From positions 254,107 through 318,106 of the forward strand of contig LJIE01000001.1 in assembly GCA_001281695.1 (NCBI GenBank): a stretch of DNA of 64,000 nt. The letters are read 5' to 3'. The position numbers were made by a program, and so were the translations under genes. Each line of letters opens with the position of its first letter. Within the stretch, counting starts at the first letter, position 1. Of the stretch, positions 2,539 through 29,693 are shown piece by piece. The notes beneath the pieces were generated by a model. The model was not told where the DNA came from and searched no databases. It saw only the letters and a program-made list of their open reading frames with translations. The DNA is from a bacterium 336/3 (GTDB lineage: Bacteria; Bacteroidota; Bacteroidia; Cytophagales; Thermonemataceae).

Positions 2539-4401
2539 ATGTTTCCAGTATATGATGTAATTGTAGTGGGTGCAGGACACGCAGGAAATGAAGCAGCAGC
2601 AGCAGCAGCAAACATGGGCTCCAAAGTTTTATTGATTACTATGAATATGCAAGTAATTGGGCAAATGTCTTGTAATCCTGCAATGGGTGGTGTTGCCAAA
2701 GGACAAATTGTAAGAGAAATTGATGCTCTTGGTGGACTTTCTGGGATAATTAGTGATAAAACAGCTATACAGTTTAGAATGTTAAATCGTTCTAAAGGTC
2801 CTGCTATGTGGAGTCCAAGAACACAAAATGACAGAATGCGTTTTGCTGAAGAGTGGAGATTAGCTTTGGAAGCCATTCCTAATCTTGATTTTTGGCAAGA
2901 TATGGCAACAGGAATTCTTGTAAAAAATGGGAAAGTTGCAGGTATTAGAACCAGTATGGGTATAGAAATAGAAAGTAAATCTGTGGTTTTAACAAGTGGA
3001 ACATTCTTAAATGGTATTATTCATATTGGTGAAAAGAAATTTGGAGGAGGTAGAACAGGAGAAAAAGCAGCAACAGGTATTACAGAACAATTAGTAGAAT
3101 TAGGTTTTGAAGCAGGCAGAATGAAAACAGGAACTCCTCCCCGTTTAGATGGAAGGACTATTAATTATGAAGCAACTGAAGAACAGTTAGGTGATGAGAA
3201 ACCAAGTAAATTTTCATTTTTAGATACTCCTGAACTCACAAAACAAATGAGTTGTTGGATTACTTATACCAATCAGGAAGTACATGAAGTCTTAAAAACA
3301 GGTTTTGATAAATCTCCAATGTTTACAGGACGTATCCAAGGTTTAGGTCCGAGATATTGCCCATCTGTAGAAGATAAAATTAATCGTTTTGCAGATAAAG
3401 AACGTCATCAGATTTTTATAGAACCTGAAGGTTGGCAAACTGTAGAAGTATATGTAAATGGTTTTTCCACTTCTTTACCAGAGGACGTTCAGTATAAAGC
3501 AATCAGAAAAATACAAGGTTTAGAAAATGTGAAAATGTTTAGACCTGGTTATGCTATTGAGTACGACTACTTCCCTCCTACCCAACTCAAGCTAACTCTC
3601 GAAACAAAACTAATTGAAAATCTATTTTTTGCTGGTCAAATTAATGGAACAACTGGTTACGAGGAAGCAGCTTGCCAAGGTCTAATGGCTGGTATCAATG
3701 CTCATAATAAAGTATATGAGAAAGAGCCTTGTATTCTGCAACGTTCGGATGCCTATATTGGTGTATTGATTGATGATCTTATCAATAAAGGTACTGAGGA
3801 ACCTTACAGAATGTTTACATCAAGAGCAGAATATAGAATTTTATTAAGACAAGATAATGCTGATAGCAGACTTACAAAACTTGGGCATCAGTTAGGTTTA
3901 GCTTCTGATGAGCGTTTAGAACGTTTAAAGAAAAAAGAAGATTCTATTGCAAAACTTCTGAATGATTTAAAACAGAAAAAAGTACAACCTGAAGAAATTA
4001 ATAGTACGTTAGAAAACTTAGGTACATCAGGCATCAAAGAAAAAAGCAGTTTTTATAGTTTACTAAAACGTCCTCAAATAGAACTTGCAGAATTAGCAAA
4101 ACATTATGAAGAGTTAAAAATCTATTTAAGCAAATATAATGAGGAAGAAATAGAACAAGCAGAGATTGCTATTAAGTATGAAGACTACTTAGTGAAGGAG
4201 CAGCAGAATGCTCAAAAAATGAAAGACTTAGAAGATTTCAAAATTCGAGATGATTTTGATTATGAACGAGTAAAAGCATTATCGATGGAGGGTAGACAAA
4301 AATTAAATAAGATACGTCCTGAAACTTTAGGACAAGCCTCAAGAATTAGTGGTGTATCTCCAGCAGATATTTCGATATTGATGGTTTACATGGGTAAATA
4401 A
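2539..4401 (+). CDS. mnmG: tRNA uridine-5-carboxymethylaminomethyl(34) synthesis enzyme MnmG
   Basis: A 620-residue FAD protein. With MnmE it installs the (carboxymethyl)aminomethyl group on wobble U34 of several tRNAs. The Rossmann motif GAGHAG is at residues 11-16. It is followed by the conserved CNPAMGGVAKGQ block around residue 50, GGGRTGEKAATG near 175, and the helical C-terminal domain that binds MnmE and tRNA. Length is typical. It sits next to two parS sites and 3 kb from the oriC candidate; mnmG (gidA) is an origin-proximal gene in many bacteria. A rho-independent terminator follows 25 bases after the stop. Confidence 0.96.
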   Translation: MFPVYDVIVVGAGHAGNEAAAAAANMGSKVLLITMNMQVIGQMSCNPAMGGVAKGQIVREIDALGGLSGIISDKTAIQFRMLNRSKGPAMWSPRTQNDRMRFAEEWRLALEAIPNLDFWQDMATGILVKNGKVAGIRTSMGIEIESKSVVLTSGTFLNGIIHIGEKKFGGGRTGEKAATGITEQLVELGFEAGRMKTGTPPRLDGRTINYEATEEQLGDEKPSKFSFLDTPELTKQMSCWITYTNQEVHEVLKTGFDKSPMFTGRIQGLGPRYCPSVEDKINRFADKERHQIFIEPEGWQTVEVYVNGFSTSLPEDVQYKAIRKIQGLENVKMFRPGYAIEYDYFPPTQLKLTLETKLIENLFFAGQINGTTGYEEAACQGLMAGINAHNKVYEKEPCILQRSDAYIGVLIDDLINKGTEEPYRMFTSRAEYRILLRQDNADSRLTKLGHQLGLASDERLERLKKKEDSIAKLLNDLKQKKVQPEEINSTLENLGTSGIKEKSSFYSLLKRPQIELAELAKHYEELKIYLSKYNEEEIEQAEIAIKYEDYLVKEQQNAQKMKDLEDFKIRDDFDYERVKALSMEGRQKLNKIRPETLGQASRISGVSPADISILMVYMGK

Positions 4402-5544: not shown

Positions 5545-7365
5545 CTATTTCAACTTATCTCCTCTCAAAAGTCTAAAACGTTTACGAGCTTCTGCTACAT
5601 ACACACTCCCTGGGTATTGAGTCAAATGTTCTTGATATAGATTCATGGCTTTTTCTTTGTTATTCAGACGTTCTTCATAGGTTTTAGCCAAATTAAAGTG
5701 AGCATCATCACTTAGTATATCAAATTTATAGTCTTTTAGAATTAGTTCATACATTTCAACAGCCTTTTCAGGTTTACCCATTTTTATATAAATACCAGCT
5801 TTTGTCCAATAAATATTGTCTGTGAGGCTATGTCCACTATAAGTTTTGAGCATTTTATCTAAACCCATAAGAGCCTCATCTGTTTTATTCTGAAATATTA
5901 GTAAATCTATTTTAGCGTATTCTTTCATAGCAGTTTCAGTACTATCCATACCTACATTATCTTGTACAAATACACTCAGGTCAATAGCATCATTAGAGAT
6001 TTCACGAGAAGTAGCATTTTTTAGAATATCCAAGTGTGTTTGAGCAAGCTCAAAATCTCCTTTATAATAGCTTAATTTTGCATTTTTTAGTTTGGCTTCA
6101 TAAGCAATTGGACTATCTTTCTGAGCTTTTTCAGCTTGATAATATAATAAACTGGCTTCACCATAATCACCCATCAGAACATAAATATCACCTAAAGCAA
6201 TTTTACACAAAGCTGTAAATTTCAAATTGTATTTAGCTTCTTCAATAGCTTCATTCAAAAGACTCAGAGCTTTATCTTTATCGTCTAAATAAAAAGCATA
6301 CAACAATGCCATATCTTTAATTGCTTCCACTGCTCTACTCTTCCCTTGAGAATTTACAAGATCCTGATAATCTTTAATAATTGTTTTAACTTTTCCTTTA
6401 TCAATGGGATATACATTTTTAATTACCTCTTCTTTAGAACGAATTAAGTATCTTCTGGCAGGAATATAATACAATTCGCTATTAGGATATTGTTCTACAA
6501 AATATCCTAGTATTTTTTCAGTAGCAGGATAATCGCTATTTTCAAAAGCTATTCTTCCTATATCAAAAAGTTGGCTACCTTGTTTTTTAAAGCGTTTATC
6601 TATTGCTTTAGCTTGTAAAAATGCTTTACTAAAGTTTTTTTGTTGCATATATAGCCATAAAAGTAATTCGTTACCAGCAGTATGATTGGGAGTTTCTTGT
6701 ACAACACCTAGAAGATATTGTTCCAGCTTATCCATTTCCTCATCCAAACGTATTTCATCTTGTAACATTCCTTTTACATGTTCAGCATAATCTTCATCCT
6801 TATTATATAGCTTTACATATTCCTCAATCATAAGCATTTTTTTGCCCATTTTAGCATATATATCACCTAATTGAAGTGCATATTTATCTGATACACCTTC
6901 GTGTCTTCTTGCCTCTAAAAATAGCTTTTCAGACCATTCATACTTATCATACCTTTCGAAGTTAGCATGAGTAGTCAATGTTTTTTCTTTATCTTTTTTA
7001 GCAATACTAATAGCATTATCGAACTCTTTCTCAGCTTCTTTTATTTTGGTTTGCATTTCTAAGATAACTCCATAATCTATCTTATAAGGTAGATTGTTAG
7101 GGTCATTTTTAATTTGTTTTTTAAGAAAATCTTCTGCTGTCTTATAATCTTTCAGATTAATAAGTGTAAGTAGGTACGACTGATGAATACTTCTCCAATT
7201 TGATGAATTTCGAGCTAGTTTATCATAAATGTCTTTAGCTTTTTCATATTTTCCTTGTACAAAGTATTCTTCAGCAAGTTGTAAATCTTGTGCTGCAACA
7301 GGCGAACTTATCAGTGTAATTAGAAAAATAAAATATAGTATTTTTCTGATATGACTTTTTTCCAT
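5545..7365 (-). CDS. Exported tetratricopeptide-repeat protein
   Basis: About 606 residues with an N-terminal signal peptide ending SPVAAQD, followed almost entirely by TPR helices (YFVQGKYEKAKDIYDKLA, AIYIKMGKPEKAVEMYELI, FNLAKTYEERLNNKEKAMNLY). The last repeats resemble YbgF/CpoB-like units. The frame opens 20 codons further upstream (7425), but Met-21 gives a normal signal peptide with a short basic start, so I place the start there. TPR scaffolds in the periplasm usually mediate protein assembly; no partner is evident. It is transcribed away from the oriC candidate and is followed by the secreted CxxC protein. Confidence 0.82.
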   Translation of the reverse strand: MEKSHIRKILYFIFLITLISSPVAAQDLQLAEEYFVQGKYEKAKDIYDKLARNSSNWRSIHQSYLLTLINLKDYKTAEDFLKKQIKNDPNNLPYKIDYGVILEMQTKIKEAEKEFDNAISIAKKDKEKTLTTHANFERYDKYEWSEKLFLEARRHEGVSDKYALQLGDIYAKMGKKMLMIEEYVKLYNKDEDYAEHVKGMLQDEIRLDEEMDKLEQYLLGVVQETPNHTAGNELLLWLYMQQKNFSKAFLQAKAIDKRFKKQGSQLFDIGRIAFENSDYPATEKILGYFVEQYPNSELYYIPARRYLIRSKEEVIKNVYPIDKGKVKTIIKDYQDLVNSQGKSRAVEAIKDMALLYAFYLDDKDKALSLLNEAIEEAKYNLKFTALCKIALGDIYVLMGDYGEASLLYYQAEKAQKDSPIAYEAKLKNAKLSYYKGDFELAQTHLDILKNATSREISNDAIDLSVFVQDNVGMDSTETAMKEYAKIDLLIFQNKTDEALMGLDKMLKTYSGHSLTDNIYWTKAGIYIKMGKPEKAVEMYELILKDYKFDILSDDAHFNLAKTYEERLNNKEKAMNLYQEHLTQYPGSVYVAEARKRFRLLRGDKLK

Positions 7366-7429
7366 AGTAGTGAATTTTTCAGAAGATAACGATTTTTTTC
7401 TTTTTTTCCAAACGACTTTTTTCATTCCT

Positions 7430-8030
7430 TTTTTTTATAAACAATAATAATAATAAATTTTTTAAAACTATTTTTATTGTTATTGGTATGTGGATAATTA
7501 AAGATTTTTACGAAAATTCAGACTTATCCACATAAATTATAAAATGTGGATAAGTGTTATAAACAATATAAACGACTGATAATCAAAAATATTATTTCTA
7601 TTATCCACATAAAAATCAAAAAAATGTGGATAAAATGTGGATAAGTACTTATCCACAAGTACGTGGATAAGTACTCGAAAAATGTGGATAAAATGTGGAT
7701 AAGCATGGTATAATTGTGGATAAATCGAATAAACATGTGGATAAGCATGAAGAGAACAATGTGAACAAGTCATAATCTTATAAACAAAGTTTTTGCAAAA
7801 TGTGGAAAAATAATGAGTTTTCCACATAGTTATACACATACAATGTTGATAGATTTCCTTAGCAATTAGAATGCCAATAAAAGTTACCCACAGGGTTACC
7901 CACAAGTTATCCACAAAAAAAGTGTGTTATCCACAAAGTTTTTTATAAAATTGTGGATATCTACATATCCTAATTTTCAACAAAAAAATAATAATATTTT
8001 TTTATTAATTGTATTTTTCTTAGAAATGAG
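7430..8030. other. Candidate chromosomal replication origin (oriC)
   Basis: This intergenic stretch holds 13 exact DnaA boxes (TTATCCACA or its complement) starting at 7489, 7525, 7545, 7601, 7625, 7636, 7649, 7683, 7694, 7715, 7736, 7907 and 7927. Near matches start at 7662, 7801, 7818, 7830, 7884, 7896 and 7952. Several are in tandem 11 bases apart (7625/7636, 7683/7694). AT-rich tracts flank the cluster: 7430-7485 with ATAATAATAATAAAT-like sequence, and 7965-8025 with poly-A/T runs. Either could be the unwinding element. Genes diverge from it (TPR protein left, dxs right). No dnaA gene is next to it. ORFs read through it are translations of the boxes and not genes. Confidence 0.9.
7645..7674. 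repeat. Perfect inverted repeat of two DnaA boxes inside oriC
   Basis: GTACTTATCCAC, six bases (AAGTAC), then GTGGATAAGTAC: 12-bp perfect arms. The left arm runs into an exact DnaA box (7649-7657); the right arm contains a box with one change (7662-7670). The arrangement places two DnaA sites head to head on opposite strands, and the DNA could extrude a cruciform. Confidence 0.85.
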
Positions 8031-8093
8031 GAGAAAGAAATGCTATACTAAAAAGATATTTTAAATGATTTAGGTAGGTTGATAAAAAATCAG

Positions 8094-8181: not shown

Positions 8182-10113
8182 ATGCTCATCGAACCTGGAC
8201 AACTGCTTGCTACAATTGAACGACCCGAAGATTTAAGAAAACTTACTCCTCAACAACTTCCACAAGTAACGCAAGAATTACGTCAGTACATCATTGATAT
8301 AGTTTCTGTTTATGGAGGACATTTCGGAGCCAGTTTAGGTGTGGTAGAACTTACAGTTGCTCTTCATTATGTATTTGATACTCCATATGATCAATTAATT
8401 TGGGATGTAGGGCATCAGGCTTATGGGCATAAAATACTTACAGAAAGAAGAAGTGTATTTCATACCAATCGCTTACATAATGGTATTTCTGGTTTTCCAA
8501 AAAGAAAAGAAAGCAAGTATGATGCTTTCGGTGTAGGACATTCTTCAACCTCTATTTCAGCTGCTTTAGGGATGGCTCTTGCTTCTAAATATAAAGGTGA
8601 AATAAATAAACAACACATTGCTGTAATTGGTGATGGAGCTATCACTGGTGGAATGGCATTCGAAGCAATGAATAATGCAGGTGCTTCTGATGCAAATATG
8701 CTTATCATTTTAAATGATAACTGCATGTCTATTGACCCCAATGTAGGAGCATTGAAAGATTATTTAACAGATATAACAACTTCATCAACATATAATAAGC
8801 TTAAAGATGAGGTTTGGAATATTTTAGGTAAAACTCAAATAGGTAAATTGACAAGAGAAGCTATTTCTAAATTAGAAAATACTATAAAAGGTGGACTTCT
8901 TAAACACAGTAATTTATTTGAGGCTTTAGGGTTACGTTATTTTGGACCCATTGACGGACACGATATAGATCATTTATATCATGTATTATCAGATCTTAAG
9001 AATATTCCTGGTCCTAAAATATTGCATTGTGTAACAACCAAAGGAAAAGGTTATGCTCTTGCAGAAAAAGACCAAACTAAATGGCATGCTCCTGGTGTTT
9101 TTGATAAGGTAACAGGAGAAATATTTAAAAAAGTACATGAAATACCTCAACCTCCAAAGTATCAGGATGTTTTTGGACATACATTGGTTGAACTTGCTAA
9201 ATTAAATTCAAAAGTAATGGGTATTACCCCAGCAATGCCTTCAGGTTCTTCTATGAATATTATCATGAAAGAAATGCCTGAAAGAGCATTCGATGTAGGG
9301 ATTTGTGAACAACATGCCGTAACATTTTCAGCAGGCTTAGCAACACAAGGACTTATTCCTTTTTGTAATATCTATTCTACATTTATGCAAAGAGCCTATG
9401 ACCAAGTAATCCATGATGTATGTATTCAGGAGTTGCCAGTTATATTTTGTATGGATAGAGGTGGTTTTGCAGGTGCTGATGGTCCAACACATCATGGAGC
9501 TTATGATATAGCTTATATGCGTTGTATCCCAAATATGATAGTTTCTGCTCCTATGAATGAGCAAGAACTTAGAAATTTGATGTACACAGCCATGCTTAAT
9601 ATGGAAGAAGGTGGAAAAAAAGCATTTTCTATTCGTTATCCAAGAGGTGAAGGTGTGATGCCTAACTGGAAAACTCCTTTTGAGAAATTAGAGATTGGTA
9701 AAGGTAGAAAATTAAGGGATGGTGAAGGAGTTGCTATTCTAACAATTGGACATATAGGAAATTATGTGAATGATATATATAAAGAGCTTGAAAAACAAGG
9801 CTTATCTCCAGCTCACTACGATATGCGTTTCGTAAAACCTCTTGATGAAGCATTGTTACATGAAATATTTCAAAAATTCGATAAAGTACTTACTATTGAA
9901 GATGGTTGTGTAATGGGCGGTTTTGGAAGTGCTGTATTAGAATGGATGGCAGATAAAGGTTATAGTGCAAAAGTACACCGTTTAGGTATGGAAGATAAAG
10001 TTTATGAACATGGAACACAATTAGAGTTACATAAAGAAGCAGGTTTTGCTCATGAGCAAATTATCGCAGAAGTCAAAAAATTAACTGTTTCAAATAAACA
10101 ATTAGCATTTTAA
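8182..10113 (+). CDS. dxs: 1-deoxy-D-xylulose-5-phosphate synthase
   Basis: A 643-residue thiamine-diphosphate enzyme that condenses pyruvate and glyceraldehyde 3-phosphate to DXP, the entry to the MEP isoprenoid pathway and to thiamine and PLP synthesis. The ThDP/Mg motif starts with GDG at residues 150-152 and ends at the NDN of ILNDN. The transketolase-type catalytic glutamate is E376 (GICEQHAVTFSAGLA), and the DRGGFAGADGPTHHG block is intact. Full length for the family. It is the first gene to the right of oriC, in a single-gene unit closed by a strong hairpin. The window also encodes HMG-CoA reductase of the mevalonate route. Confidence 0.96.
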   Translation: MLIEPGQLLATIERPEDLRKLTPQQLPQVTQELRQYIIDIVSVYGGHFGASLGVVELTVALHYVFDTPYDQLIWDVGHQAYGHKILTERRSVFHTNRLHNGISGFPKRKESKYDAFGVGHSSTSISAALGMALASKYKGEINKQHIAVIGDGAITGGMAFEAMNNAGASDANMLIILNDNCMSIDPNVGALKDYLTDITTSSTYNKLKDEVWNILGKTQIGKLTREAISKLENTIKGGLLKHSNLFEALGLRYFGPIDGHDIDHLYHVLSDLKNIPGPKILHCVTTKGKGYALAEKDQTKWHAPGVFDKVTGEIFKKVHEIPQPPKYQDVFGHTLVELAKLNSKVMGITPAMPSGSSMNIIMKEMPERAFDVGICEQHAVTFSAGLATQGLIPFCNIYSTFMQRAYDQVIHDVCIQELPVIFCMDRGGFAGADGPTHHGAYDIAYMRCIPNMIVSAPMNEQELRNLMYTAMLNMEEGGKKAFSIRYPRGEGVMPNWKTPFEKLEIGKGRKLRDGEGVAILTIGHIGNYVNDIYKELEKQGLSPAHYDMRFVKPLDEALLHEIFQKFDKVLTIEDGCVMGGFGSAVLEWMADKGYSAKVHRLGMEDKVYEHGTQLELHKEAGFAHEQIIAEVKKLTVSNKQLAF

Positions 10114-19258: not shown

Positions 19259-20389
19259 TTAAAGAATCATTTCTTTACAAGCTTTGTAAAGATCTTTATA
19301 ATCTTCACGTGTACGAAGAACTGTTTCAAGGTACTCTGTCCAAACAACTTTATCTTGTATAGGGTCTTTTACAACTGCACCAACTAAACCAGAAGCTACG
19401 TCCAAAGCACTCATCGTACCATCACCAAAGTGTGCAGCCAAAGCTAAACCACTGTTTACCACAGAAATAGCTTCTGCTGTACTCATCGTACTTGTAGGAG
19501 TTTTAATTTTGGTTTTACCATCTAAGGTTACACCTGCTCTCAACTCTCTAAAAATCGTAACAATTCTCTTTATTTCTTTAAGAGGAGGCATTTCTGCAGG
19601 CAATTCTAAGTTTTTAGCAATGCTATTGACACGACGTTCTACAATATCTACTTCTTCCTCAATACTTTCTGGTGATGGAAGAATAACCGTATTGAAACGG
19701 CGTTTCAATGCTCCAGAAAGTTCATTTACACCTTTATCTCTATTGTTGGCTGTTGCAATAACATTAAATCCTTTTACAGCCTGAACTTCTGTATTCAATT
19801 CAGGAATAGGCATTGTTTTTTCTGAAAGAATGGTGATCAATGTATCTTGAACATCTGCTGTGATACGAGTAAGCTCCTCAATACGAGCAATTTTGCCTTC
19901 TTTCATAGCCACCATCATAGGCGTAACTACCAAAGCATTTTCGCTGGGACCCTCAGCAAGCAAACGAGCATAATTCCAACCATAACGAACAGCTTCTTCA
20001 CCTGTACCTGCTGTACCCTGAATAAGCAAAGTGGAATCTCCAGAAATAGCAGCAGATAAATGCTCTGATACCCAAGATTTTGCTGTACCAGGTAAACCAT
20101 ACAACAACAAAGCTCTATCAGTAGTGAGTGTAGCAACAGCTATTTCCATCAATCTGCGAGAACCAATATATTTGGGGCTTACTTCAAAACCATTTTTTAA
20201 TTTACCACCCATTAGGTAAATAACTACAGATGCAGGAGACATATGCCAGAGAGGTGGAACATTTCCTGAATCTTGTTTTTTTAATTCTTCTAATTCTTGG
20301 GCAAATTGTATTTCAGCATGCTGACGAAGAACGCCAGTACTATTTGTGTTGCTGGTGGAACTACTATTATTAGTGGTTTTTTTTGCCAT
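19259..20389 (-). CDS. AAA+ ATPase of the AAA_5/MoxR type
   Basis: 376 residues. Walker A GLPGTAKSW near residue 101; a Walker B-like segment IARIEELTR, where Glu-Glu replaces the usual Asp-Glu; sensor region NVIATANNRDKGVNELSGALKRRFN with arginine finger. A Ser/Thr/Asn-rich N-terminal tail precedes a helical segment. I recall close relatives encoded with VWA, SWIM and DUF5682/DUF5691 genes; none is adjacent here. It is a single-gene unit closed by its own terminator. Confidence 0.8.
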   Translation of the reverse strand: MAKKTTNNSSSTSNTNSTGVLRQHAEIQFAQELEELKKQDSGNVPPLWHMSPASVVIYLMGGKLKNGFEVSPKYIGSRRLMEIAVATLTTDRALLLYGLPGTAKSWVSEHLSAAISGDSTLLIQGTAGTGEEAVRYGWNYARLLAEGPSENALVVTPMMVAMKEGKIARIEELTRITADVQDTLITILSEKTMPIPELNTEVQAVKGFNVIATANNRDKGVNELSGALKRRFNTVILPSPESIEEEVDIVERRVNSIAKNLELPAEMPPLKEIKRIVTIFRELRAGVTLDGKTKIKTPTSTMSTAEAISVVNSGLALAAHFGDGTMSALDVASGLVGAVVKDPIQDKVVWTEYLETVLRTREDYKDLYKACKEMIL

Positions 20390-20518
20390 TTCTGTAAGTT
20401 TTTAATTCTAAAAATGTAGATGTTCAAATATAAAAAAATTACTCTCTCAAGAAAAAGAAAATGAATTAGTTTTTTAGTTTTTAGAAATAAAGATTTTATA
20501 ATGGGATGTTTTTGGCTT

Positions 20519-21013
20519 TTATTGCATTTTAGATAAATGCTTTTCTAAAATTTTGATAAGATTTTCTAACCCAATTTGGTCTTGCTCATCAAAATCGTTG
20601 AGTTTATCACTATCTACATCTAAAACTCCTACAACTTTTTCATTTTGAAAAATGGGAACAACTACCTCAGATTTTGAAAGAGAGCTGCAAGCAATATGCC
20701 CAGGGAAAGCATCTACATCAGGTACAAGGATGGTTTTTTGTTCTTTCCAAGAAGCCCCACAAACACCTTTGCCAAAAGCAATACGTGTACATGCCAATGT
20801 TCCCTGAAAAGGAGCAAGTACTAATTGTTCATTTTTTACCCAATAAAAGCCAACCCAAAAGAATCCAAAAGCTTCTTTGAGAATAGCTACAAAGTTTGCT
20901 AAATTGGCTGTAAGATCAGTTTCTGTTTGTAAAATGCCATCTATTTGTGGTACAAGGGCATTATAAATATCTTTTTTTGTTGAATTCTGAGGGATGAAAA
21001 CGTTTTCTGCCAT
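20519..21013 (-). CDS. msrC: Free methionine-(R)-sulfoxide reductase (GAF domain)
   Basis: 164 residues forming one GAF domain. It reduces free L-methionine-(R)-sulfoxide in the cytoplasm using thioredoxin. The three family cysteines are C75 (FQGTLACTRI), C85 (GKGVCGASW) and C109 (FPGHIACSS). Their spacing of 10 and 24 residues equals that of E. coli fRMsr (84, 94, 118). The substrate-site segment SKSEVVVPIF is intact. Full length for the family, no fusion. It lies 14 bases upstream of nothing else on its strand except the preceding lipoprotein gene's stop at 21028, so cotranscription with 21028 and 21687 is likely. Confidence 0.92.
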   Translation of the reverse strand: MAENVFIPQNSTKKDIYNALVPQIDGILQTETDLTANLANFVAILKEAFGFFWVGFYWVKNEQLVLAPFQGTLACTRIAFGKGVCGASWKEQKTILVPDVDAFPGHIACSSLSKSEVVVPIFQNEKVVGVLDVDSDKLNDFDEQDQIGLENLIKILEKHLSKMQ

Positions 21014-21027
21014 ATAGTAGGGTGATT

Positions 21028-21690
21028 TTATTCTAAATACTTTTCTAAAACATAAAAATTACTAATGTTGTTCTCTTTGTTGCCAAAGAATATAAGTCCT
21101 TCATTTTTTTTTAAGATACTTATACTTTCTGAGTATCCCATTGTATCTTTTTTATTGCTTAAATTATTGTAAATCAATTTCACTATAGAGGAGCCTTGTA
21201 TAATCATGCAATCTGAACATTTAATATCCAAAGTATCAATAGATTTTATTAGAGATTTCGTTTTTCTTTTGATGTCATAGGTAAGTCCAATGTTCCTTTT
21301 AGAAATATATTGAATATGATGTTCTAAGTATCCATTTTTGAGTAGCTGTTTTCTTAAAATTTCACCATTGAGTCTCATAGGTGTGTTATTAGAATCTAAC
21401 TCATACATACCTATATCGACTAAATCTACGTAATTAGGGCTGATATTTTCGGTATAATCACTAAAAATCAAGCTGTTTACAAACCAACTACTTATAGATT
21501 GCGAAATGGTATCATTTATTTTTTTCTCCTTAGTATGTAAAAATAAAGCCCTGTAAGACTTATCCTTTATATGAACAAACTTCTTGATACCTTCTGTATT
21601 TTTCCAAACAATAAAACTTTTAGTATGTCTTTTTTCTTTACAGGAAAAAAACAAAAAACTTGCACATAAAACTATAATACAATATTTCAT
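21028..21690 (-). CDS. Putative lipoprotein of unknown function
   Basis: 220 residues. The N-terminus has a short hydrophobic stretch and lipobox FFSC followed by KEK, predicting a lipoprotein. The mature part is a mixed alpha/beta chain with no motif I know; it has a CSDC pair (IKCSDCMII) in its second half. The start codon overlaps the stop of the upstream gene by 4 bases (translational coupling), linking it to the UBA-like protein at 21687. Confidence 0.7.
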   Translation of the reverse strand: MKYCIIVLCASFLFFSCKEKRHTKSFIVWKNTEGIKKFVHIKDKSYRALFLHTKEKKINDTISQSISSWFVNSLIFSDYTENISPNYVDLVDIGMYELDSNNTPMRLNGEILRKQLLKNGYLEHHIQYISKRNIGLTYDIKRKTKSLIKSIDTLDIKCSDCMIIQGSSIVKLIYNNLSNKKDTMGYSESISILKKNEGLIFFGNKENNISNFYVLEKYLE

Positions 21691-22223
21691 TCAAAATCTC
21701 TGTTTAAATTTCGCCAATGTCTGCTGAGGGCTTTGTCTAATTTATCTTTATACAAATTGAAAGTTTTTTCATCAAGAATAGGATTAGAATTTAAAATATT
21801 TTTTAATTCATCAAAATCTTTTAGGTGTGTTAAAATGTCAATTACAATATTTGTTGTTTCTGTTAAAGATAAAGGTAGCTCCCAGTAATGATAATCAGTC
21901 ATCCAATTGAGCCAATCACGTACAATTTCTAACTTTTCTTTGGTGATTTCAGAATGAAAGACATAATTTCTATCAAATTCATCTTCAATTACTAATGTAA
22001 TGGCTTTGGTAATGTCATAACGTGTATAACGATAGGCTTCTTCTGCAATTTCCCAAGAGCAATCAGTTGCTTCTATAATTTCTTGGATACATTGTTCTTT
22101 AAATATTTTTTGAATAATATCTGTATTTCCTTGATATTCATTTAATAATGAAACTGCCTGAGAGATGGGAATGGGAATACGTTTTCTTAGAAACTTAAGC
22201 TCTTCTAAATATTGGGTTTTCAT
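21687..22223 (-). CDS. Small helical protein, possibly with UBA-like bundles
   Basis: 178 residues, no signal peptide. The first 80 residues look like two UBA/TS-N-type three-helix units: ISQAVSLLNEYQGNTDIIQKIF and then CSWEIAEEAYRYTRYDITKAITLV, each with the hydrophobic A-x-x-x-L-x-x-x-x-x-D pattern. The C-terminal half is helical and rich in Leu, Trp and Tyr. In EF-Ts and NAC such folds bind translation components; a role here is inference. It is coupled to the downstream lipoprotein gene by a 4-base overlap. Confidence 0.65.
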   Translation of the reverse strand: MKTQYLEELKFLRKRIPIPISQAVSLLNEYQGNTDIIQKIFKEQCIQEIIEATDCSWEIAEEAYRYTRYDITKAITLVIEDEFDRNYVFHSEITKEKLEIVRDWLNWMTDYHYWELPLSLTETTNIVIDILTHLKDFDELKNILNSNPILDEKTFNLYKDKLDKALSRHWRNLNRDFE

Positions 22224-22239
22224 AAGCTAAATATAAAAC

Positions 22240-22266
22240 AAAAAAGAGGCTTAAGCCTCTTTTTTT
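22240..22266 (-). terminator. Terminator of the DUF3276 gene
   Basis: AAAAAAGAGGC / GCCTCTTTTTT stem with loop TTAA; the T run on the minus strand follows the stop of the gene ending at 22265. Confidence 0.85.
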
Positions 22267-22609
22267 ATTCCCATTTCAATTCGCTTTCTTGAGCCTCATC
22301 ATTGCTTTCAAAAGCTTCCTGCTCTACAACTTGATTGAAGTCATAATCAGGCATCAATTCTTTAATTTTCACGATAGCCTCTTCTAAAGACTCGATGAAC
22401 TTCCCGAAATCTTCTTTATACAAGAAAATCTTATGTTTTTCGTAGTAAAATCCATTATCACGGAAACGTTTTTTGCTTTCAGTGATAGTAAGGTAGAAGT
22501 CGCTACCTCTTGTAGATTTTACATCAAAGAAATAAGTTCTTTTACCTGCCCTTACTCTTTTAGAGTAAACATCCGCAGCTCGGTCGTTGGTTTCTTTGTA
22601 CTCTTCCAC
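22265..22609 (-). CDS. PUR-family (DUF3276) nucleic-acid-binding protein
   Basis: 114 residues. The sequence follows the PUR repeat: VRAGKRTYFFDVKSTRGSDF, then YLTITESKKRF, YEKHKIFLYKEDFGKF and a helix. DUF3276 is the bacterial PUR-alpha-like family; Borrelia BpuR of this group binds DNA and RNA. The acidic Glu-rich tail after residue 95 resembles other small nucleic-acid-binding proteins. Monocistronic with its own terminator. Target unknown. Confidence 0.88.
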   Translation of the reverse strand: MEEYKETNDRAADVYSKRVRAGKRTYFFDVKSTRGSDFYLTITESKKRFRDNGFYYEKHKIFLYKEDFGKFIESLEEAIVKIKELMPDYDFNQVVEQEAFESNDEAQESELKWE

Positions 22610-22725
22610 AATCCTTAAATTTTAGTTGAACCTTTCGTTTATTGAGTGCGTAAAATTAGAAATTTTTATCGCTACACAAAAAAATATTTAAAAAATTTCC
22701 CTTATGAATATATTTTTTTGAATGA

Positions 22726-23232
22726 TTATTTTTTATGTACTTCACTTTGAGCATCTTCAATTCGTAAACCCATAGAAAGAATCCCTTTAAGTGGATTGAT
22801 ACGCATAAATTGCTTGAACTCATAAGTATACTTTCCTTTTTGCTTAAACTTAAAATTTTGAAAAACAGGTAATTGATGCTCCCTGATACCTCCAGTTCCT
22901 ATTCCATAGGGCTCACCTGTATTGGGATGAAAAAGAACAACATCTTGCAATAAAGAATCAACTTTTTTACCATCAGGATAACGTAAATAATAAGTAACAT
23001 ATACGTTATAGTAAGGATATGAAAGCTCATTACGAATATTATAGTACAAATTATAGGCTTTGGAAGTGTCTTTGATTTCAAAGTTTAGTTTTACAGGTTT
23101 TTCCATAGCCCATTTTCCTTCTTTAATACTCTCATTATCTTCAAATACAACGCCCTCTTCTTTGCAAGCACTAAGAAACGTCATATTGATAATCAAAAAG
23201 CTAAAAAATAGAATTTTTTTATAGGAATTCAT
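22726..23232 (-). CDS. gldH: Gliding motility lipoprotein GldH
   Basis: 168 residues. Signal peptide with lipobox FLSACKEE. The body matches the GldH pattern: YNLYYNIRNELSYPYYNVYV, the GEPYGIGTGGIREHQLPVF region, and the late MRINPLKGILSMGLRIED segment. In Flavobacterium johnsoniae GldH is needed for gliding and for the T9SS machinery. Its ATG overlaps the stop of the RicT-like gene by 1 base, so they are co-translated. Its presence supports gliding and T9SS in this organism together with the sorting-domain protein at 12321. Confidence 0.9.
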   Translation of the reverse strand: MNSYKKILFFSFLIINMTFLSACKEEGVVFEDNESIKEGKWAMEKPVKLNFEIKDTSKAYNLYYNIRNELSYPYYNVYVTYYLRYPDGKKVDSLLQDVVLFHPNTGEPYGIGTGGIREHQLPVFQNFKFKQKGKYTYEFKQFMRINPLKGILSMGLRIEDAQSEVHKK

Positions 23233-24425
23233 TATTTATTATTTCTTGGAGGATGTTGTTTGTTATTTTTATTAGGATGATTTTTTGAAGTTTTAGGCTT
23301 TTCAGTTTTTAGATTTTTTTTCTCTCTATTTTTTAATTTTTTATCCAATGCCTGAATAGCTCCTTTTTCTGTAGCAATCTCTTTTGCTTTTTTAGCTTCT
23401 GCTGAAACTTGTCCTGTTTCTATTTGTGCTAAAGTTTCAGGAATAATGCCTTTTTCATTTAACTCCATGATTTCCTTTACTCTTTCAATAGTAAGAGGGT
23501 GCCAATTGCTATCATTCTCATAACCAAACCACATAATTTTCTTAAAAATGTCAGTTTTCTTGAGACTTACGTTTCCTTGTTTGGTTTTTAAAGGTTTTTC
23601 AATATTTGGAAAATCTTTAACAGCTTCAATATATGTATCTAATTCATAATTCAAGCAACATTTGAGTCTTCCACATTGTCCAGAGAGTTTAGCAGGGTTT
23701 AGAGAAAGATTTTGATAACGAGCAGCCGTTGTGGTAACACTCTTAAAATCAGTTAGCCAAGTAGAACAGCAAAGCTCTCTCCCACAAACGCCTATACCTC
23801 CAAGCCTACCAGCTTCTTCTCTAAGAGAAATTTGACGCATTTCAACACGAATTTTAAACTCAGAAGCAAGAATTTTGATTAACTCTCTAAAATCTATTCG
23901 ATTTTCTGCAGAATAATAAAAAGTAGCTTTGGTATTATCTGCTTGAAACTCAACATCTGAAAGTTTCATAGGCAAACTTTGTTCTCCAATAATTTGCCTT
24001 GCTCTAAACATAGTAGGCAAATTACGAGCTTGAGTTTCCTTAAATTTTTCAATATCTTTTTCAGAGGCTATACGCAAAATATTGAGGATATTTTCGTTCT
24101 CTTCTATTACATTTTTTTTTAACATTTGGAGGCGGACAAGCTCACCTTGCAAAGAAACATGCCCCAAATGATAACCGTTTTGTGCTTCTACAACTACTGC
24201 ATCACCAGTATATAAATCAAAATGTTGGGTATTTCGGAAAAAACCTTTATTGCCATTTTTAAAACGAACCTCTACAATACGAAACTTTTGGTCAACAGGC
24301 AAATCCATATTAGAAAGCCAGTCAAAAGAGTTCATTTTATTACAGCCACCTGTTTTACAACCTCCCCCACAACCAGATGATTTATCAGTAGAGCAACCTC
24401 CTGAAGAACAAGAAGAACAACCCAT
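23232..24425 (-). CDS. PSP1-domain (RicT/YaaT-like) protein with cysteine-rich N-terminus
   Basis: 397 residues. Six cysteines occur in the first 28 residues (C3, C6, C11, C19, C23, C28) in a Gly/Ser-rich tail. The PSP1 core runs from about residue 45 to 275 and holds two further Cys motifs (VCGRELCCSTW and GQCGRLKCCLNYE). The last 60 residues are Lys/Asn-rich. In B. subtilis, RicT with RicA and RicF forms an Fe-S complex that promotes RNase Y-dependent mRNA maturation; whether this holds in Bacteroidota is unknown to me. Directly upstream of gldH. Confidence 0.88.
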   Translation of the reverse strand: MGCSSCSSGGCSTDKSSGCGGGCKTGGCNKMNSFDWLSNMDLPVDQKFRIVEVRFKNGNKGFFRNTQHFDLYTGDAVVVEAQNGYHLGHVSLQGELVRLQMLKKNVIEENENILNILRIASEKDIEKFKETQARNLPTMFRARQIIGEQSLPMKLSDVEFQADNTKATFYYSAENRIDFRELIKILASEFKIRVEMRQISLREEAGRLGGIGVCGRELCCSTWLTDFKSVTTTAARYQNLSLNPAKLSGQCGRLKCCLNYELDTYIEAVKDFPNIEKPLKTKQGNVSLKKTDIFKKIMWFGYENDSNWHPLTIERVKEIMELNEKGIIPETLAQIETGQVSAEAKKAKEIATEKGAIQALDKKLKNREKKNLKTEKPKTSKNHPNKNNKQHPPRNNK

Positions 24426-24513
24426 AAATTTTCAGTAAAAATAAAATAATCAACAAAAATAAATCTAACCAACTACAAAGTTAGCTTGCTTAACGACAAA
24501 AAACAAACGTATT

Positions 24514-25098
24514 CTAAAATTGTTTGGAAAAATCAATGATGCCTTCAGGAGTAATACAATAATTCATAGACACATCATAATTATCTATATCTGTGATATT
24601 TTCTTCCAAAGGGGGCTCCAATGATATACCAACTTTAATGACTTGAGGGCATTGAGCCAAAAACCGATCATAAAACCCTTGTCCATAACCTACTCTAAAC
24701 CCTTGTTTGTCAAAAGCTAAAAGAGGAACTAAAACCATTTGAATATTTTCGATAGAAAATATTTGGGCATCAACAGGTTCACTAATTCCCCATTGGTTGG
24801 TAAGTAGTTTGGTCTCTTTGTTTAGATGAAAATGAGCTAATTCCTTCTTTTTGAAGTTTGTAGTTGCGATAATCCAAGAAATTTTAGGTTTTTGTTCCCA
24901 AGCTTTATGAATAAAACTCCAAGTATCAGGTTCTTTTTGAGATAAAATGGGTAAAAAAGTGTGAATAAATTCAATGTTTTTTATTTTATCCCAAGAAATA
25001 AAAAGATTAGAAAGAGTATTATTTTTATCTTTAAAAGAAGACTCAGATAAAGAAAGCCTTTTTTCTTTATATATTTTACGAATATCTGCTTTTAACAT
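24514..25098 (-). CDS. 5-formyltetrahydrofolate cyclo-ligase
   Basis: 194 residues. It converts 5-formyl-THF to 5,10-methenyl-THF with ATP. The conserved nucleotide-binding segment LLAFDKQGFRVGYGQGFYDRFL is complete, and the N-terminal KADIRKIYKEKRLSLS matches the family's basic helix. Normal length. It begins 5 bases after the stop of the PDZ-hydrolase gene and is probably co-transcribed with it. Confidence 0.9.
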   Translation of the reverse strand: MLKADIRKIYKEKRLSLSESSFKDKNNTLSNLFISWDKIKNIEFIHTFLPILSQKEPDTWSFIHKAWEQKPKISWIIATTNFKKKELAHFHLNKETKLLTNQWGISEPVDAQIFSIENIQMVLVPLLAFDKQGFRVGYGQGFYDRFLAQCPQVIKVGISLEPPLEENITDIDNYDVSMNYCITPEGIIDFSKQF

Positions 25099-25103
25099 AA
25101 ATA

Positions 25104-26378
25104 TTATAAACCTCCTATTACTTTACCTATCCATTCGTAAATGCTTTCAGCAATTTGTGGATTAAAATCAGATTCTTTATCAGTATCTTGGGAGTTACGC
25201 AAACACATTTTATGATCTGCTCTATTTATTTTGATAAAAGTTCCTTTTTTAGGATTATGTTGGTTGATAATATTTGTAATAAGCTGATGTTCAGAAGCAA
25301 AAGTTGACCTATCAGATTCTCCCCAAATGGAAAGAACATAACCATTATATTCTTTCCATTGTTGAGCTACATTAATCTCACTTAATTGATACCAATATTG
25401 TGGACTTCTGAAACTGAATCTTTTTAAAAAGTCTTGACAATCTGAATTATATTTAAAAACACTATCTAAATGTTGTTTTTGCATAAAAAATCTAACGCTA
25501 CAATCTGTTACATTTTTTGTCCATTCTTCTACATCTTCATAATCTTCTCCTTTTTGTATAGCCATTGCCTTGCGAGAGTCTATCAAATAATTTGTCCAAT
25601 TCTGACCAATAGTACCATAAACCACAACTCCTTTTGCATTTTCTTTTTGTGCAATCATAGGGGCTATTACGCCTCCTAAACTATGCCCAATTACAAAAAT
25701 GTTATCTTTATCTACAAAAGGATATGTTTTTAAGGCTTTGAGAGCTTCTGTGAAATGAGCTAATTCTGTTTGGAAATCAAGTTTTTCACAAGGAGTACCT
25801 TGACTATCTCCAACACCAGATTTTTCAACCCTCATGGTTACAATATTGTTTTTACTTAAATGACGCAACATTTGAACATGCCCATAAGTAGTATCCATAG
25901 GAGTATCAACAGGATAACAACCTACCCCTTGAATAAAAATTACAGCAGGATATTTACCTTCTTTTTGGGGAACCGTAATAATACTACGTAAAACAGCATT
26001 ATTTACAGGGATTTCGCCATAAATGGTTCTGTTAGCAAAGGTAATTTCTTTGGGTGCTTCATCTAAACGAGCATCAAGAATTATTTCCTGATCATTTCTA
26101 CGAACTTTTAGTTTTACTTTTTCTTTTGGACTAAATTTTTTAAGTCCTTGAATAAGCTCTTGAATAGAATGAGGCTGAAAATCATTGATACTCAATAATT
26201 CATCTCCGATTTTCATTCCAGACCTTTCTGCAGCAGTTTTGGGATAAATCTTATTGATAACTAAAACTTGATTTTTTTCTACTGGATCAATGCCTAAAAA
26301 AGCCCTTCTTGTCAGCTTTTGTGCAACTGACACGCCAATCCAACCCCAAATAATGATAAGTAAAATGTAAAATCGCAT
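25104..26378 (-). CDS. Exported PDZ-domain alpha/beta-hydrolase
   Basis: 424 residues. An N-terminal hydrophobic signal ends VSVAQ; a PDZ domain at about 25-110 has KIYPKTAAERSGMKIGDELLSIN; a serine-hydrolase domain runs from about 135 on. The nucleophile is in VIGHSLGGVI, the acid in WGESDRST, and the histidine in RADHKM, the classic triad order. PDZ fused to a hydrolase suggests docking to a protein terminus or complex in the periplasm (inference). Substrate unknown; the fold resembles S9/dienelactone-type esterases. Pairs with the formyl-THF ligase gene by proximity only. Confidence 0.85.
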   Translation of the reverse strand: MRFYILLIIIWGWIGVSVAQKLTRRAFLGIDPVEKNQVLVINKIYPKTAAERSGMKIGDELLSINDFQPHSIQELIQGLKKFSPKEKVKLKVRRNDQEIILDARLDEAPKEITFANRTIYGEIPVNNAVLRSIITVPQKEGKYPAVIFIQGVGCYPVDTPMDTTYGHVQMLRHLSKNNIVTMRVEKSGVGDSQGTPCEKLDFQTELAHFTEALKALKTYPFVDKDNIFVIGHSLGGVIAPMIAQKENAKGVVVYGTIGQNWTNYLIDSRKAMAIQKGEDYEDVEEWTKNVTDCSVRFFMQKQHLDSVFKYNSDCQDFLKRFSFRSPQYWYQLSEINVAQQWKEYNGYVLSIWGESDRSTFASEHQLITNIINQHNPKKGTFIKINRADHKMCLRNSQDTDKESDFNPQIAESIYEWIGKVIGGL

Positions 26379-26546
26379 ATTTATTGTAGTAATTTCTATA
26401 AAAACGACTATGGTTATAAATTATTATAAATTGTAAAAAAAGTTATCAAAAAATTCTACAACATCAAATTATTATTTTGCAAATTTAGAGAGATAAATTG
26501 TGATTTTAAATTGTTTTGTAAATAAATACTTAAATTCAAAGAAGAT

Positions 26547-27173
26547 ATGAAAGCCTTTATTTTAATTTTAACAATTTTACTTGGCATAAGTCAAAATGTT
26601 TGTGGGCAAATTCTTGCTGAAGGAACATTCCACGCAGGGAGTGTAAAAGATAAAGAAGGAAATACATGGGGAGGACAAATAAAATATGATACCAAACAAC
26701 AAACAGTGATGGTAGACAATGGAGGAACACTAAAAACCTTTAATGCAAGAAACATTGAGAGTTTTTCGTTTTATGATAGTAAAGTGAAAGCAAATAGAAG
26801 ATTTTTAACCCTTATGTATGCAAAAAACATTAATATCAGTTATGAATCTGCTACTTTTTTTGAGGTGCTTACAGAGGGAAACAAAGTAACACTATTAGGA
26901 ACAGAGTATTTAGAAACTCGCATGAATCCGCAAGCAGGATGGGGTTGGTATGGTACAGGAGGACGGACTTTTTCTTATAGAATCATTACAGAGTTTTACA
27001 TTATGAATAAAAGCGGAAAAATTGTAAAACTGAGAACAGGAAGTAAAAAACAATTTTTGTCCCAAATGAAAGAAGAGACTTCTCAATTAGAAACATTTAT
27101 GAAAAAGAATAAATTGGGAGTACAACAACGTCTTGACATGATAAAAATATTTGATTACTATAACACACTCTAA
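26547..27173 (+). CDS. Secreted protein of unknown function
   Basis: 208 residues with a signal peptide ending NVCGQ. The mature region is beta-rich ([23 protein letters not shown]) with a Gly/Trp/Tyr patch ([18 protein letters not shown]) and a basic helical C-terminus. I recognise no family; similar lengths and patterns occur among exported Bacteroidota proteins. It stands alone between the divergent hydrolase and tRNA-Ser. Confidence 0.65.
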
Positions 27174-27184
27174 AGGAAATTTAC

Positions 27185-27192
27185 TAAATTTG
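27185..27192 (+). promoter_or_regulatory. Candidate -7 element of tRNA-Ser
   Basis: TAAATTTG fits TAnnTTTG and ends 14 bases before the tRNA 5' end. No well-placed -33 TTTG is visible. Confidence 0.4.
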
Positions 27193-27206
27193 CATTCCTA
27201 AAAATT

Positions 27207-27293
<87 letters not shown>

Positions 27294-27294
27294 C

Positions 27295-27339
27295 AAAAAG
27301 AAAAGCTATCTATACATATTATAGATAGCTTTTCTTTTT
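27295..27339 (+). terminator. Terminator after tRNA-Ser
   Basis: A long near-perfect hairpin, AAAAAGAAAAGCTATCTAT with its complement, loop ACATATT, and T run. The stem is extended by A/T pairing, so it may act on both strands. Confidence 0.85.
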
Positions 27340-27352
27340 ATATATTCTACAT

Positions 27353-27925
27353 CTACTCTTTTGTGAAAACAAGCTCTTCACTCCAATAAAGTTTATTATT
27401 CAAGTTTTTAGCTATAAAATCTCTGAAAATCTTTTCACTTGCAAACTTTGTAGGTTTTGCATTACTCGCATCATATCTTTTGCCTTTGGCTTTTGCCTCA
27501 TTTACACCTTTTTCAAAAAATAGAGATACAGATAATTTTCCATCTTTTACTTTATACTTAAAATAACAATATCCTTTTTTACCTTCTTCTTCTGCTCCAA
27601 AATTAACGATTTTTGTTCCTTTTAGTATAGATATATACGCATCTAAAGGTTTATCTTCTTTGGGCTGTTCACCTTCTGTTGGCTTATTCTTGATATCAAG
27701 GGTGTATGTTCCTGTTGAAGAGCTTTTTGTGAAAATAATTTTATCAATAGGAAGTTCTAATTCTTCAGCAGATTTTTTAGCTGGAGGAACAAACTTCCAA
27801 GAGCCAACTAATTGGTCATCATCAACAAATGCAGTTTTATCAGTTATAAGATATTCAGAAGAAATACATGAACCCATGAATAAAACTGTTAGTAAAAGTA
27901 GAAAAGGAAATTGTAGCTTTTTCAT
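27353..27925 (-). CDS. Putative lipoprotein of unknown function
   Basis: 190 residues; lipobox LFMGSC near residue 20. The mature chain begins with a lipocalin-like phrase (DQLVGSWKFVPP), followed by beta-strands and a Lys/Glu-rich loop (KPTEGEQPKEDKP). The LxGxWkf motif is typical of lipocalin-like DUF4488/META-adjacent lipoproteins in Bacteroidota, but the match is loose. Single gene; the T run of the tRNA terminator may also end it. Confidence 0.68.
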   Translation of the reverse strand: MKKLQFPFLLLLTVLFMGSCISSEYLITDKTAFVDDDQLVGSWKFVPPAKKSAEELELPIDKIIFTKSSSTGTYTLDIKNKPTEGEQPKEDKPLDAYISILKGTKIVNFGAEEEGKKGYCYFKYKVKDGKLSVSLFFEKGVNEAKAKGKRYDASNAKPTKFASEKIFRDFIAKNLNNKLYWSEELVFTKE

Positions 27926-27956
27926 AATACATTTTGTTTAAAATTTCTCAAAAATA

Positions 27957-27990
27957 AAGAACCCTCCATAAAATATAGAGGGTCTTTTTA
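27957..27990 (-). terminator. Terminator between the TraB-like gene and the lipoprotein gene
   Basis: Stem ACCCTC / GAGGGT extended by A-T pairs, with an A run before and T run after, downstream of the TraB-like gene's stop on the minus strand. Confidence 0.7.
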
Positions 27991-28043
27991 TGAAAGAAAC
28001 TTTTTTGTTTATCAAATTATATTACGGCTTAATGAATCAATTT

Positions 28044-29003
28044 TTATATCTTAGTTTTGAGAGGTTTAACGGTATAACCTTGCTTACGTAATTGATAAAT
28101 CAAGCCATCTTTGCCAACTAAATGCAATGCTCCTACAGCTATAAAAACTGGTTTTTCTTGAACTAATTTGTAGATTTGAGGCATCCAAGCGTCATTTCTG
28201 TTTTTTAGTAAAGAATTGTATTCTTCAGGTTTCATATTTTTGTCATCTAATCCAAATTTTGCCAATTCATTCAGATTTTGCTCTGCATAATACTTATTCA
28301 ATTTCTTCATAGATTCTGATGATTGTGAACCTTTATCTTCAATAACTTCCATCAACATTTCAGCTTGGCGTTGTAAAGACGACCCTTTTAATAAAACATT
28401 AGCTTGTAATTCAACAGTTTCCAAACCAATAATCTCTTTTTCTAAAGATTTTCCATACGTTTGAAAATATCCATCCAAACTATTACTGGGGTCGCCACTC
28501 ATCATTTTGTTCTCATCTAAGCCCAATTCTTTAGAAATCTTCTTTACAGAAATCATTTGAATAAGCATCATGGGACGCATTTTATTAAAAAGAGCAGCAC
28601 TCATGCCCATATTTGTTTGTAAATATTCATCTACTTGGTTAAATTTCTTTTCCCCCAACAAATCTTTAAGTGTTGTATCTTGCATGATAGCTACTTTCAT
28701 CATAGCCATGGATGTAGCCATCATGTTATCTAATGCTATTTCGCCAATAACAGTTTTGCTTTTTCTGATTTTCTCTTTTATAAACTCATTCTTCTTAACA
28801 GAATCTGGTGGATATAAGTGGTGTGTACCAAATAAATAAGATGGTTCTTTAATTCCTTTTCCCGAAATTTCCCAAAAAACAGAGTTTTCAAGTTCTAAAT
28901 TTGGAGTAATACTGCTTTTTGCTGAGTTTTTTACTTTTTTTTGTGCAATAGCAACATCTACAATAAATAAGAGTAATGATGCTAAAATAAGATACTTTTT
29001 CAT
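28044..29003 (-). CDS. TraB/GumN-family exported protein
   Basis: 319 residues with signal peptide ending VAIAQ. The family's features are present: SYLFGTHHL with the Gx2H-type N-terminal motif, the GEIAL acid, the central ETVELQ segment, and the C-terminal RNDAWMPQI and FIAVGALHLVGKDGLI-type blocks. TraB/GumN proteins have a metal-dependent peptidase-like active site (Tiki fold); the substrate in bacteria is unknown. It follows the FtsL-like gene by 9 bases. Confidence 0.87.
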   Translation of the reverse strand: MKKYLILASLLLFIVDVAIAQKKVKNSAKSSITPNLELENSVFWEISGKGIKEPSYLFGTHHLYPPDSVKKNEFIKEKIRKSKTVIGEIALDNMMATSMAMMKVAIMQDTTLKDLLGEKKFNQVDEYLQTNMGMSAALFNKMRPMMLIQMISVKKISKELGLDENKMMSGDPSNSLDGYFQTYGKSLEKEIIGLETVELQANVLLKGSSLQRQAEMLMEVIEDKGSQSSESMKKLNKYYAEQNLNELAKFGLDDKNMKPEEYNSLLKNRNDAWMPQIYKLVQEKPVFIAVGALHLVGKDGLIYQLRKQGYTVKPLKTKI

Positions 29004-29012
29004 GGTATAGGG

Positions 29013-29387
29013 TTATTTTTTGATAATGATTTGATAAGGAACTTTTTCGGCTCGTTCAAGACCCATATCCTTAGCTCGCTTTTCGACTTCTGAATACTTT
29101 GTAGTATTCATATACTTAGCCTGAGATTGTGTATAGTCAGAACGAAGATTAGTGACGTCTTTTTCTAAAATAATAATTTGTCGTTGGAGCTTCCTTGCAT
29201 AATGAGTGTTACTGATATAAAATATACCTAAAATTGTGAGATATAGTACATAAGGAATATAATTGATAGGTTTTCTTTTTTGGGTAAGAAAATCTACGTT
29301 TACTAAATTATCAATCCAAAGAAAAACACTTCTCTTTGCTTCAGGACGTTCGGGGGCGGATTCTTTATATGTATTTTCCATTATCAT
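29013..29387 (-). CDS. FtsL-like cell division protein
   Basis: 124 residues. Short cytoplasmic N-terminus, one transmembrane helix (YIPYVLYLTILGIFYIS), then a coiled coil (RKLQRQIIILEKDVTNLRSDYT) and a small C-terminal region (RAKDMGLERAEKVPYQI). This matches the FtsL-like family of Bacteroidota, part of the FtsQLB-type divisome. It is not next to mraZ/rsmH/ftsI as in the usual dcw cluster, but pairs with a TraB protein. Start could be Met-1 or Met-3. Confidence 0.78.
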   Translation of the reverse strand: MIMENTYKESAPERPEAKRSVFLWIDNLVNVDFLTQKRKPINYIPYVLYLTILGIFYISNTHYARKLQRQIIILEKDVTNLRSDYTQSQAKYMNTTKYSEVEKRAKDMGLERAEKVPYQIIIKK

Positions 29388-29503
29388 GAATTCTTTACTT
29401 TAACGAAAACAAAAATAATATTAGTTCATTTGAGAGTAAAAATAATAGTAAAAATATAAAACACTCAACTATTAAGAAGGGTTTTACTTAAAAAAATAGA
29501 TGA

Positions 29504-29656: not shown

Positions 29657-29662
29657 AAATTA

Positions 29663-29670
29663 TATATTTG
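29663..29670 (+). promoter_or_regulatory. Candidate -7 element of hisF
   Basis: TATATTTG fits TAnnTTTG exactly, 23 bases before the hisF ATG. No -33 TTTG is visible at the expected distance. Confidence 0.35.
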
Positions 29671-29693
29671 CCTTCCATTTTATAAAAACTATT

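Follow-up and report, generated by a model that had tools for sequence, protein, structure and literature searches.

The analysed window is a 64-kb stretch (positions 254107-318106 of contig 1) from a Bacteroidota genome whose assembly consists of 13 contigs, with contig 1 comprising 4.11 Mb. The genes around the region of interest are lysA, mnmG, a gene for a TPR protein and dxs; lysA, mnmG and dxs pass the NCBIfam cut-offs. The mnmG gene (gidA; window positions 2539-4401, plus strand) ends 3.1 kb from the first of the DnaA boxes described below. The TPR protein (5545-7425, minus strand) has 626 residues and an N-terminus that looks signal-like by eye. Its gene is divergent from dxs (8182-10113, plus strand), which codes for 1-deoxy-D-xylulose-5-phosphate synthase. 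As the earlier note had described, an array of DnaA boxes lies between these two genes, with dxs bounding it on one side and the TPR gene on the other. An ORF of 125 codons on the minus strand (7537-7914) overlaps the array and is regarded as a chance occurrence. At the Rfam gathering threshold, a single tRNA gene (27207-27293, plus strand) was the only RNA family matched in the whole window.

By pattern count, the array holds 20 boxes, distributed over both strands within 472 bp (7489-7960). Thirteen of these are perfect copies of TTATCCACA and seven have one mismatch, exactly as had been claimed. The perfect boxes start at 7489, 7545, 7625, 7636, 7683, 7694, 7715 and 7736 on the minus strand and at 7524, 7601, 7649, 7907 and 7927 on the plus strand. 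Those with one mismatch start at 7662, 7801 and 7952 (minus strand) and at 7818, 7830, 7884 and 7896 (plus strand). The mixed orientation is thus real, and so is the tandem spacing of 11 bp, which is seen start to start in two exact pairs (7625/7636 and 7683/7694). The earlier note had called this layout unlike that of E. coli. The number of exact consensus boxes is far higher here than in E. coli, and the TPR gene as a flanking gene is a further difference. Mixed orientation as such is not unusual in bacterial origins. The array is flanked by two tracts which are indeed AT-rich, having a GC content of 16% on the TPR side (7410-7499) and 19% on the dxs side (7950-8039), compared to 32% for the window.

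The exact boxes of the array span 7489-7935. Their density had been considered to be far beyond chance, and the Poisson probability for 13 boxes in 456 bp is about 1e-36 when the remaining 102 exact boxes of the genome, taken as uniform, serve as background. The rest of the window contains only one exact box (17037) and 20 with one mismatch. With up to one mismatch allowed, the window has 41 boxes in total, compared to a mean of 21.9 in shuffled sequences; a count of 41 was attained in one of 100 shuffles. What sets the array apart is its clustering and its exact copies, while the number of near matches elsewhere in the window is not unusual. Genome-wide, TTATCCACA occurs in 115 exact copies in 4,714,744 bases; the reversed pattern, used as a control, occurs 121 times, so that the box is not enriched in the genome in general. 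Among the first 100 matches listed, inspection by eye revealed no site outside the array with more than two exact boxes per 500 bp, and the same applies to the further stretches, which hold nearly all of the remaining exact boxes. The array is the only cluster of this kind seen in the genome, in a search that covered all but 3.1 kb of contig 7 and in which a cluster split by a stretch edge could escape.

Contig 7, which is small and unplaced, has three exact boxes within about 520 bp (at 1798, 2080 and 2313 of the stretch 20001-40000). This is the densest spot noticed outside the array in the searched stretches, and it could be a titration site or a chance occurrence.

The gene for DnaA is not located next to the array, as had been stated. 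It is found at position 2,047,462 of contig 1, at a distance of 1.79 Mb, is the only match to Bac_DnaA found in the genome, and is not positioned at a skew switch (see below). A box cluster near dnaA was rejected as a candidate, as the sole exact box in its vicinity (L001:1335) is inside the dnaA reading frame. An adjacent dnaA is common for DnaA-dependent origins but does not define them.

GC skew had been named as a check in the earlier note, and it was applied to sampled stretches. Within the window, raw GC skew is dominated by gene strand and shows no clear minimum. Therefore, a strand-corrected skew was used: it was computed from fourfold-degenerate sites, separately for the ORFs of each strand, and the two values were then averaged. 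Contig 1 was sampled in stretches of 20 kb about every 100 kb and more densely near the window, which itself was quartered, giving 48 stretches in total; the skew data thus represent contig 1, and the 0.6 Mb on the 12 further contigs, which are unplaced, are outside of them. At the box cluster, a negative skew gives way to a positive one. Between the cluster and 2.5 Mb, each of 26 stretches has a positive value (in one case only +0.006). On the other side, which runs from 2.6 Mb through the end of the contig and on from its start as far as the cluster, all 21 measurable stretches are negative; a further, 22nd stretch has no ORFs on one strand and hence no skew value. Within the window, the skew is -0.18 to the left of the cluster and +0.08 to +0.12 to its right. 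The reverse switch occurs between the 2.50 and 2.60 Mb stretches, about 2.3 Mb from the cluster and hence about halfway around the 4.71 Mb assembly. Such a distance is as for a symmetric ori-ter axis, on the assumption that the circle is completed by the 0.6 Mb of unplaced contigs.

The position of the switch was refined by a likelihood change-point fit to 127 ORFs from a contiguous region of 144 kb that includes the window. The fit placed it at 262.5-263.9 kb, and bootstrapping gave a 5-95% range of 257.6-271.9 kb. For comparison, the box cluster occupies 261.6-262.1 kb. The log-likelihood gain was 22.7, compared to a maximum of 14.7 among 200 permutations. One relative (G104) that has a TPR-linked box cluster (see below) was also analyzed. 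The skew of its genome is too weak to be decisive (10 of 20 stretches positive, 10 negative), and it does not switch at the cluster, where the values are +0.051 to the left and +0.032 to the right.

In related genomes, it is the TPR gene that recurs next to such arrays. The 900 bp preceding the match to the TPR ortholog (839 bp in one genome) were searched for near-boxes, defined as having no or one mismatch. At least six were found in all eight genomes of the family, including the one analyzed here (seven of seven others). At an E-value of 1e-20, a TPR ortholog is present in 128 of 146 genomes of the order (Cytophagales). A total of 53 genomes from the order were examined (one of them, a family member, falls outside the 146), and 33 of these, the own one included, have a TPR-linked cluster of near-boxes. 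They represent 10 of 18 sampled families. The first set, consisting of the family and the best-scoring matches, contributed 24 of 33; its 25 loci from outside the family are biased to near relatives by this mode of selection. The second set, hand-picked across families, contributed 9 of 20, and some of its members (G045, G058) were chosen for a listed box pair near the TPR gene. Shuffled upstream sequences of this second set contain at most three near-boxes. Outside the order, the rest of the class was represented by 20 genomes, all from different families; none of these has a cluster, with at most one near-box upstream of the TPR ortholog. The TPR link is a feature of the order, though it is not universal, as 20 of the 53 genomes have no cluster upstream of the TPR ortholog. 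The TPR gene can serve as a practical marker for locating origins in many genomes of this order. We do not propose a replication role for the TPR protein, as there is no reason to assign one. Among the listed matches of a literature search, in which subscription papers were mostly outside the coverage, none reported a TPR-linked oriC in Cytophagales as judged by title or start of the abstract.

The other neighbour, dxs, was considered as an origin-linked gene and was rejected. In all seven other genomes of the family, there is no cluster at dxs; these loci have no exact box and 0-4 near-boxes each (weaker dxs-like loci were left out). Likewise, no cluster is present at dxs in any of 80 named Bacteroidota loci, where the density of exact boxes does not exceed one per 600 bp. 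These loci included up to 5 kb on each side (about 12 kb), with up to nine near-boxes per locus, and six of the 80 had less than 1 kb upstream. Named relatives heading the listed dxs matches include Runella, Pontibacter, Siphonobacter and Spirosoma, which suggests that the bacterium is Cytophagales-like. As the clusters of relatives are found at the TPR ortholog and not at dxs, the position of dxs beside the array looks like a recent arrangement.

At the TPR end of the array, the sequence resembles the basal unwinding system (BUS), which consists of a DnaA box, a spacer and DnaA-trios (PMC6669920, PMC8287927). According to the rule given in PMC8287927, a box with at most two mismatches is followed by a spacer of 0-16 bp and at least three NAN triplets. 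The box nearest to the TPR gene, which we refer to as the anchor box (7489-7497, minus strand), is perfect and points toward this gene. It is directly followed, on the minus strand from 7488 down to 7468, by the run TAC CAA TAA CAA TAA AAA TAG. In a loose reading, these are seven triplets with a middle A right after the anchor box. In a strict reading, with trios defined as [TC]A[AG], they are four triplets following a 3-base spacer, which is matched by none of 100 dinucleotide shuffles. Either way, the box is followed within 16 bp by at least three NAN triplets. The run lies in the tract at 7410-7499 described above, the most AT-rich part on the TPR side, which we propose as DNA-unwinding element based on its composition and on the analogy to BUS. 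In its composition, this tract corresponds to the AT-rich element beside the boxes that is typical for a DnaA-dependent oriC.

As in B. subtilis, a perfect box and a short spacer precede middle-A triplets beside an AT-rich stretch, and some relatives show tandem boxes, a (G)CCC spacer and TAA/TAG triplets. Unlike in B. subtilis, the array is not beside dnaA, the triplets are mostly TAA/CAA rather than TAG (3'-GAT-5'), and 12 of 33 loci have an opposing trio run on the second strand (see below). Neither main text (PMC8287927, PMC6669920) mentions the word Bacteroidetes. Among the 33 clustered loci, a box followed by at least three strict trios is found in 21, and the other 12 have fewer than three trios by the strict rule. 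Many loci have a regular layout at their TPR end, composed of a box or tandem boxes, (G)CCC and TAATAA. In a few of the 21 (L274, L276, L300, L310), the run is some distance away, roughly 280-520 bp from where the TPR match begins. Since the box-spacer-trio layout matches that of the known BUS, the duplex probably opens at 7410-7499.

Judged from its sequence, the array region is very probably the chromosomal oriC of this Bacteroidota bacterium. It is an intergenic cluster of DnaA boxes that coincides with a skew switch, with a mirror switch about half a genome away in the sampled parts of contig 1. Dense boxes beside housekeeping genes and far from dnaA would also fit a DnaA-titration or regulatory cluster that soaks up DnaA and is not an origin, as exemplified by E. 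coli datA, itself a DnaA-box cluster away from dnaA. A datA-type locus is, however, not expected at a skew switch and has no unwinding element. Here, the skew switch coincides with the cluster, which speaks against a location away from the origin, the cluster carries a box-spacer-trio element, and no second such cluster was noticed in the searched stretches as a candidate for the true origin. We consider it very improbable that the array is a titration site instead of the origin. The boxes might also belong to the origin of an integrated plasmid or mobile element, as some plasmid origins carry direct DnaA-box repeats. We attribute a practically negligible probability to this explanation. The nearest genes (lysA, mnmG, dxs) are chromosomal housekeeping genes, no initiator (rep) family was matched among the nine different neighbour proteins scanned, which represent part of the genes of the window, and the TPR link recurs across more than half of the sampled families of the order.

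For the array as oriC, we infer the following course of events. DnaA would bind to the box array (7489-7960), and a filament of ATP-DnaA would extend from the perfect box at 7489-7497 onto the minus-strand trios (7488 down to 7468). This filament would open the AT-rich stretch at 7410-7499, where the helicases would be loaded and from which two forks would depart. The position of the origin is well supported in a lineage where dnaA is no guide. While this kind of origin is already known, its unwinding arrangement is perhaps new.

This arrangement includes a second trio run. The sequence CAA TAA TAA TAA TAA on the plus strand (7442-7456) faces the run which follows the anchor box. A box-like sequence, TTATAAACA (7435-7443), which has two mismatches, overlaps its start. 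By the strict rule, the opposing run lies 17 bases beyond the first one, and none of 500 shuffles reached this configuration. An opposing run of at least three trios within 110 bases was found in 12 of the 33 clustered loci (the own one included), whereas none of the 33 has a further trio run on the strand of the first. When only loci with a first run of at least three trios are considered, 11 of 21 have an opposing run. In shuffles of single loci, values below 0.05 were obtained for 9 of the 12 loci. The segments from two loci (L268, L303) were too short to be shuffled but are counted among the 33. The 12 loci belong to eight genera from four families, and four of them, being from the window's own genus, are non-independent. 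Upstream regions that lack a cluster have 31 runs in 18 kb, counting both strands. At this rate, the 2.6 kb examined should contain about two opposing runs, and at the rate elsewhere in the clustered loci, fewer than one. This comparison of run rates and boxes excluded L277, L280, L282 and L288, in which the best run is below two. An inward box (at most two mismatches) just before the opposing run was found in 5 of the 12 loci.

We hypothesize that opposing trios could seed DnaA on both strands. It is tempting to speculate that many Cytophagales origins have a convergent unwinding element, at which the duplex is opened from both sides by two filaments of DnaA, with each filament designating one of the strands for a helicase, although we consider this to be rather doubtful. 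Such an element would bring the second helicase to the opposite strand by means of DnaA only. The B. subtilis system is described as having trios on one strand and a DnaD element on the opposite one; loading of the second helicase was described as unclear, and the DnaD element opposite the trios has been proposed in this context (PMC10201434). A DnaD route is unlikely for the genome analyzed here, as there is no match to the DnaD-type family PF07261, while one match to DciA is present. The PF07261 search gave a match in 2 of 14 control genomes, including B. subtilis.

The opposing runs, as distinct from the array as a whole, have an alternative explanation which we favor to some degree: they may reflect a DNA hairpin or mere AT-rich sequence and be unrelated to DnaA filaments on the second strand. 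Facing TAA runs are inverted repeats by construction, and such runs easily arise in AT-rich DNA. Complementarity is complete along the whole shorter run in 4 of the 12 loci, and 7 of the 12 have no inward box with at most two mismatches within 25 bases. On the other hand, the single-strand hairpin at the trio region of the window is no better than that of shuffles (z -0.26). Moreover, three loci (L299, L301, L306) keep the trio pattern while complementarity falls to 0.44-0.67, and an opposing run is present in 12 loci but a second same-strand run in none. A convergent element is the less favored reading. If opposing runs do load DnaA, the placement of two helicases on opposite strands becomes testable with a simple DNA substrate. 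In our view, the opposing trios are the part which most deserves the attention of specialists, while we regard the link to the TPR gene and the regularity of the unwinding layout as useful. No report on opposing DnaA-trios was recognized by title or start of the abstract among the matches listed, again with subscription papers mostly outside the coverage.

The oriC predicted here shares further properties with characterized origins. Like E. coli oriC, it combines a DnaA-box array with an adjoining AT-rich unwinding element (PMC13220808). It also has mnmG (gidA) nearby, at a distance of 3.1 kb; in E. coli and Y. pestis, oriC is located between gidA and mioC (PMC10225481). From the same broad bacterial group, the oriC of Cytophaga hutchinsonii is functional and can drive a plasmid; it has been used on replicative plasmids (PMC5288383). 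A mapped oriC is a prerequisite for building replicative plasmids in this group.

Two genomes from the order have unusual box contents. One (G061) has 27 tandem box pairs, the highest number among the 146 genomes, which are spread over many contigs (contig 77 and others); pairs are present upstream of its TPR gene as well as downstream. It possibly has several box clusters or repeats, which cautions against taking every box array for an origin. In the other (G043, locus L288), 15 near-boxes but no exact one were found upstream of the TPR gene, and TTATTCACA occurs in place of TTATCCACA (within 230 bases). This suggests that the DnaA-box consensus may be altered in this lineage.
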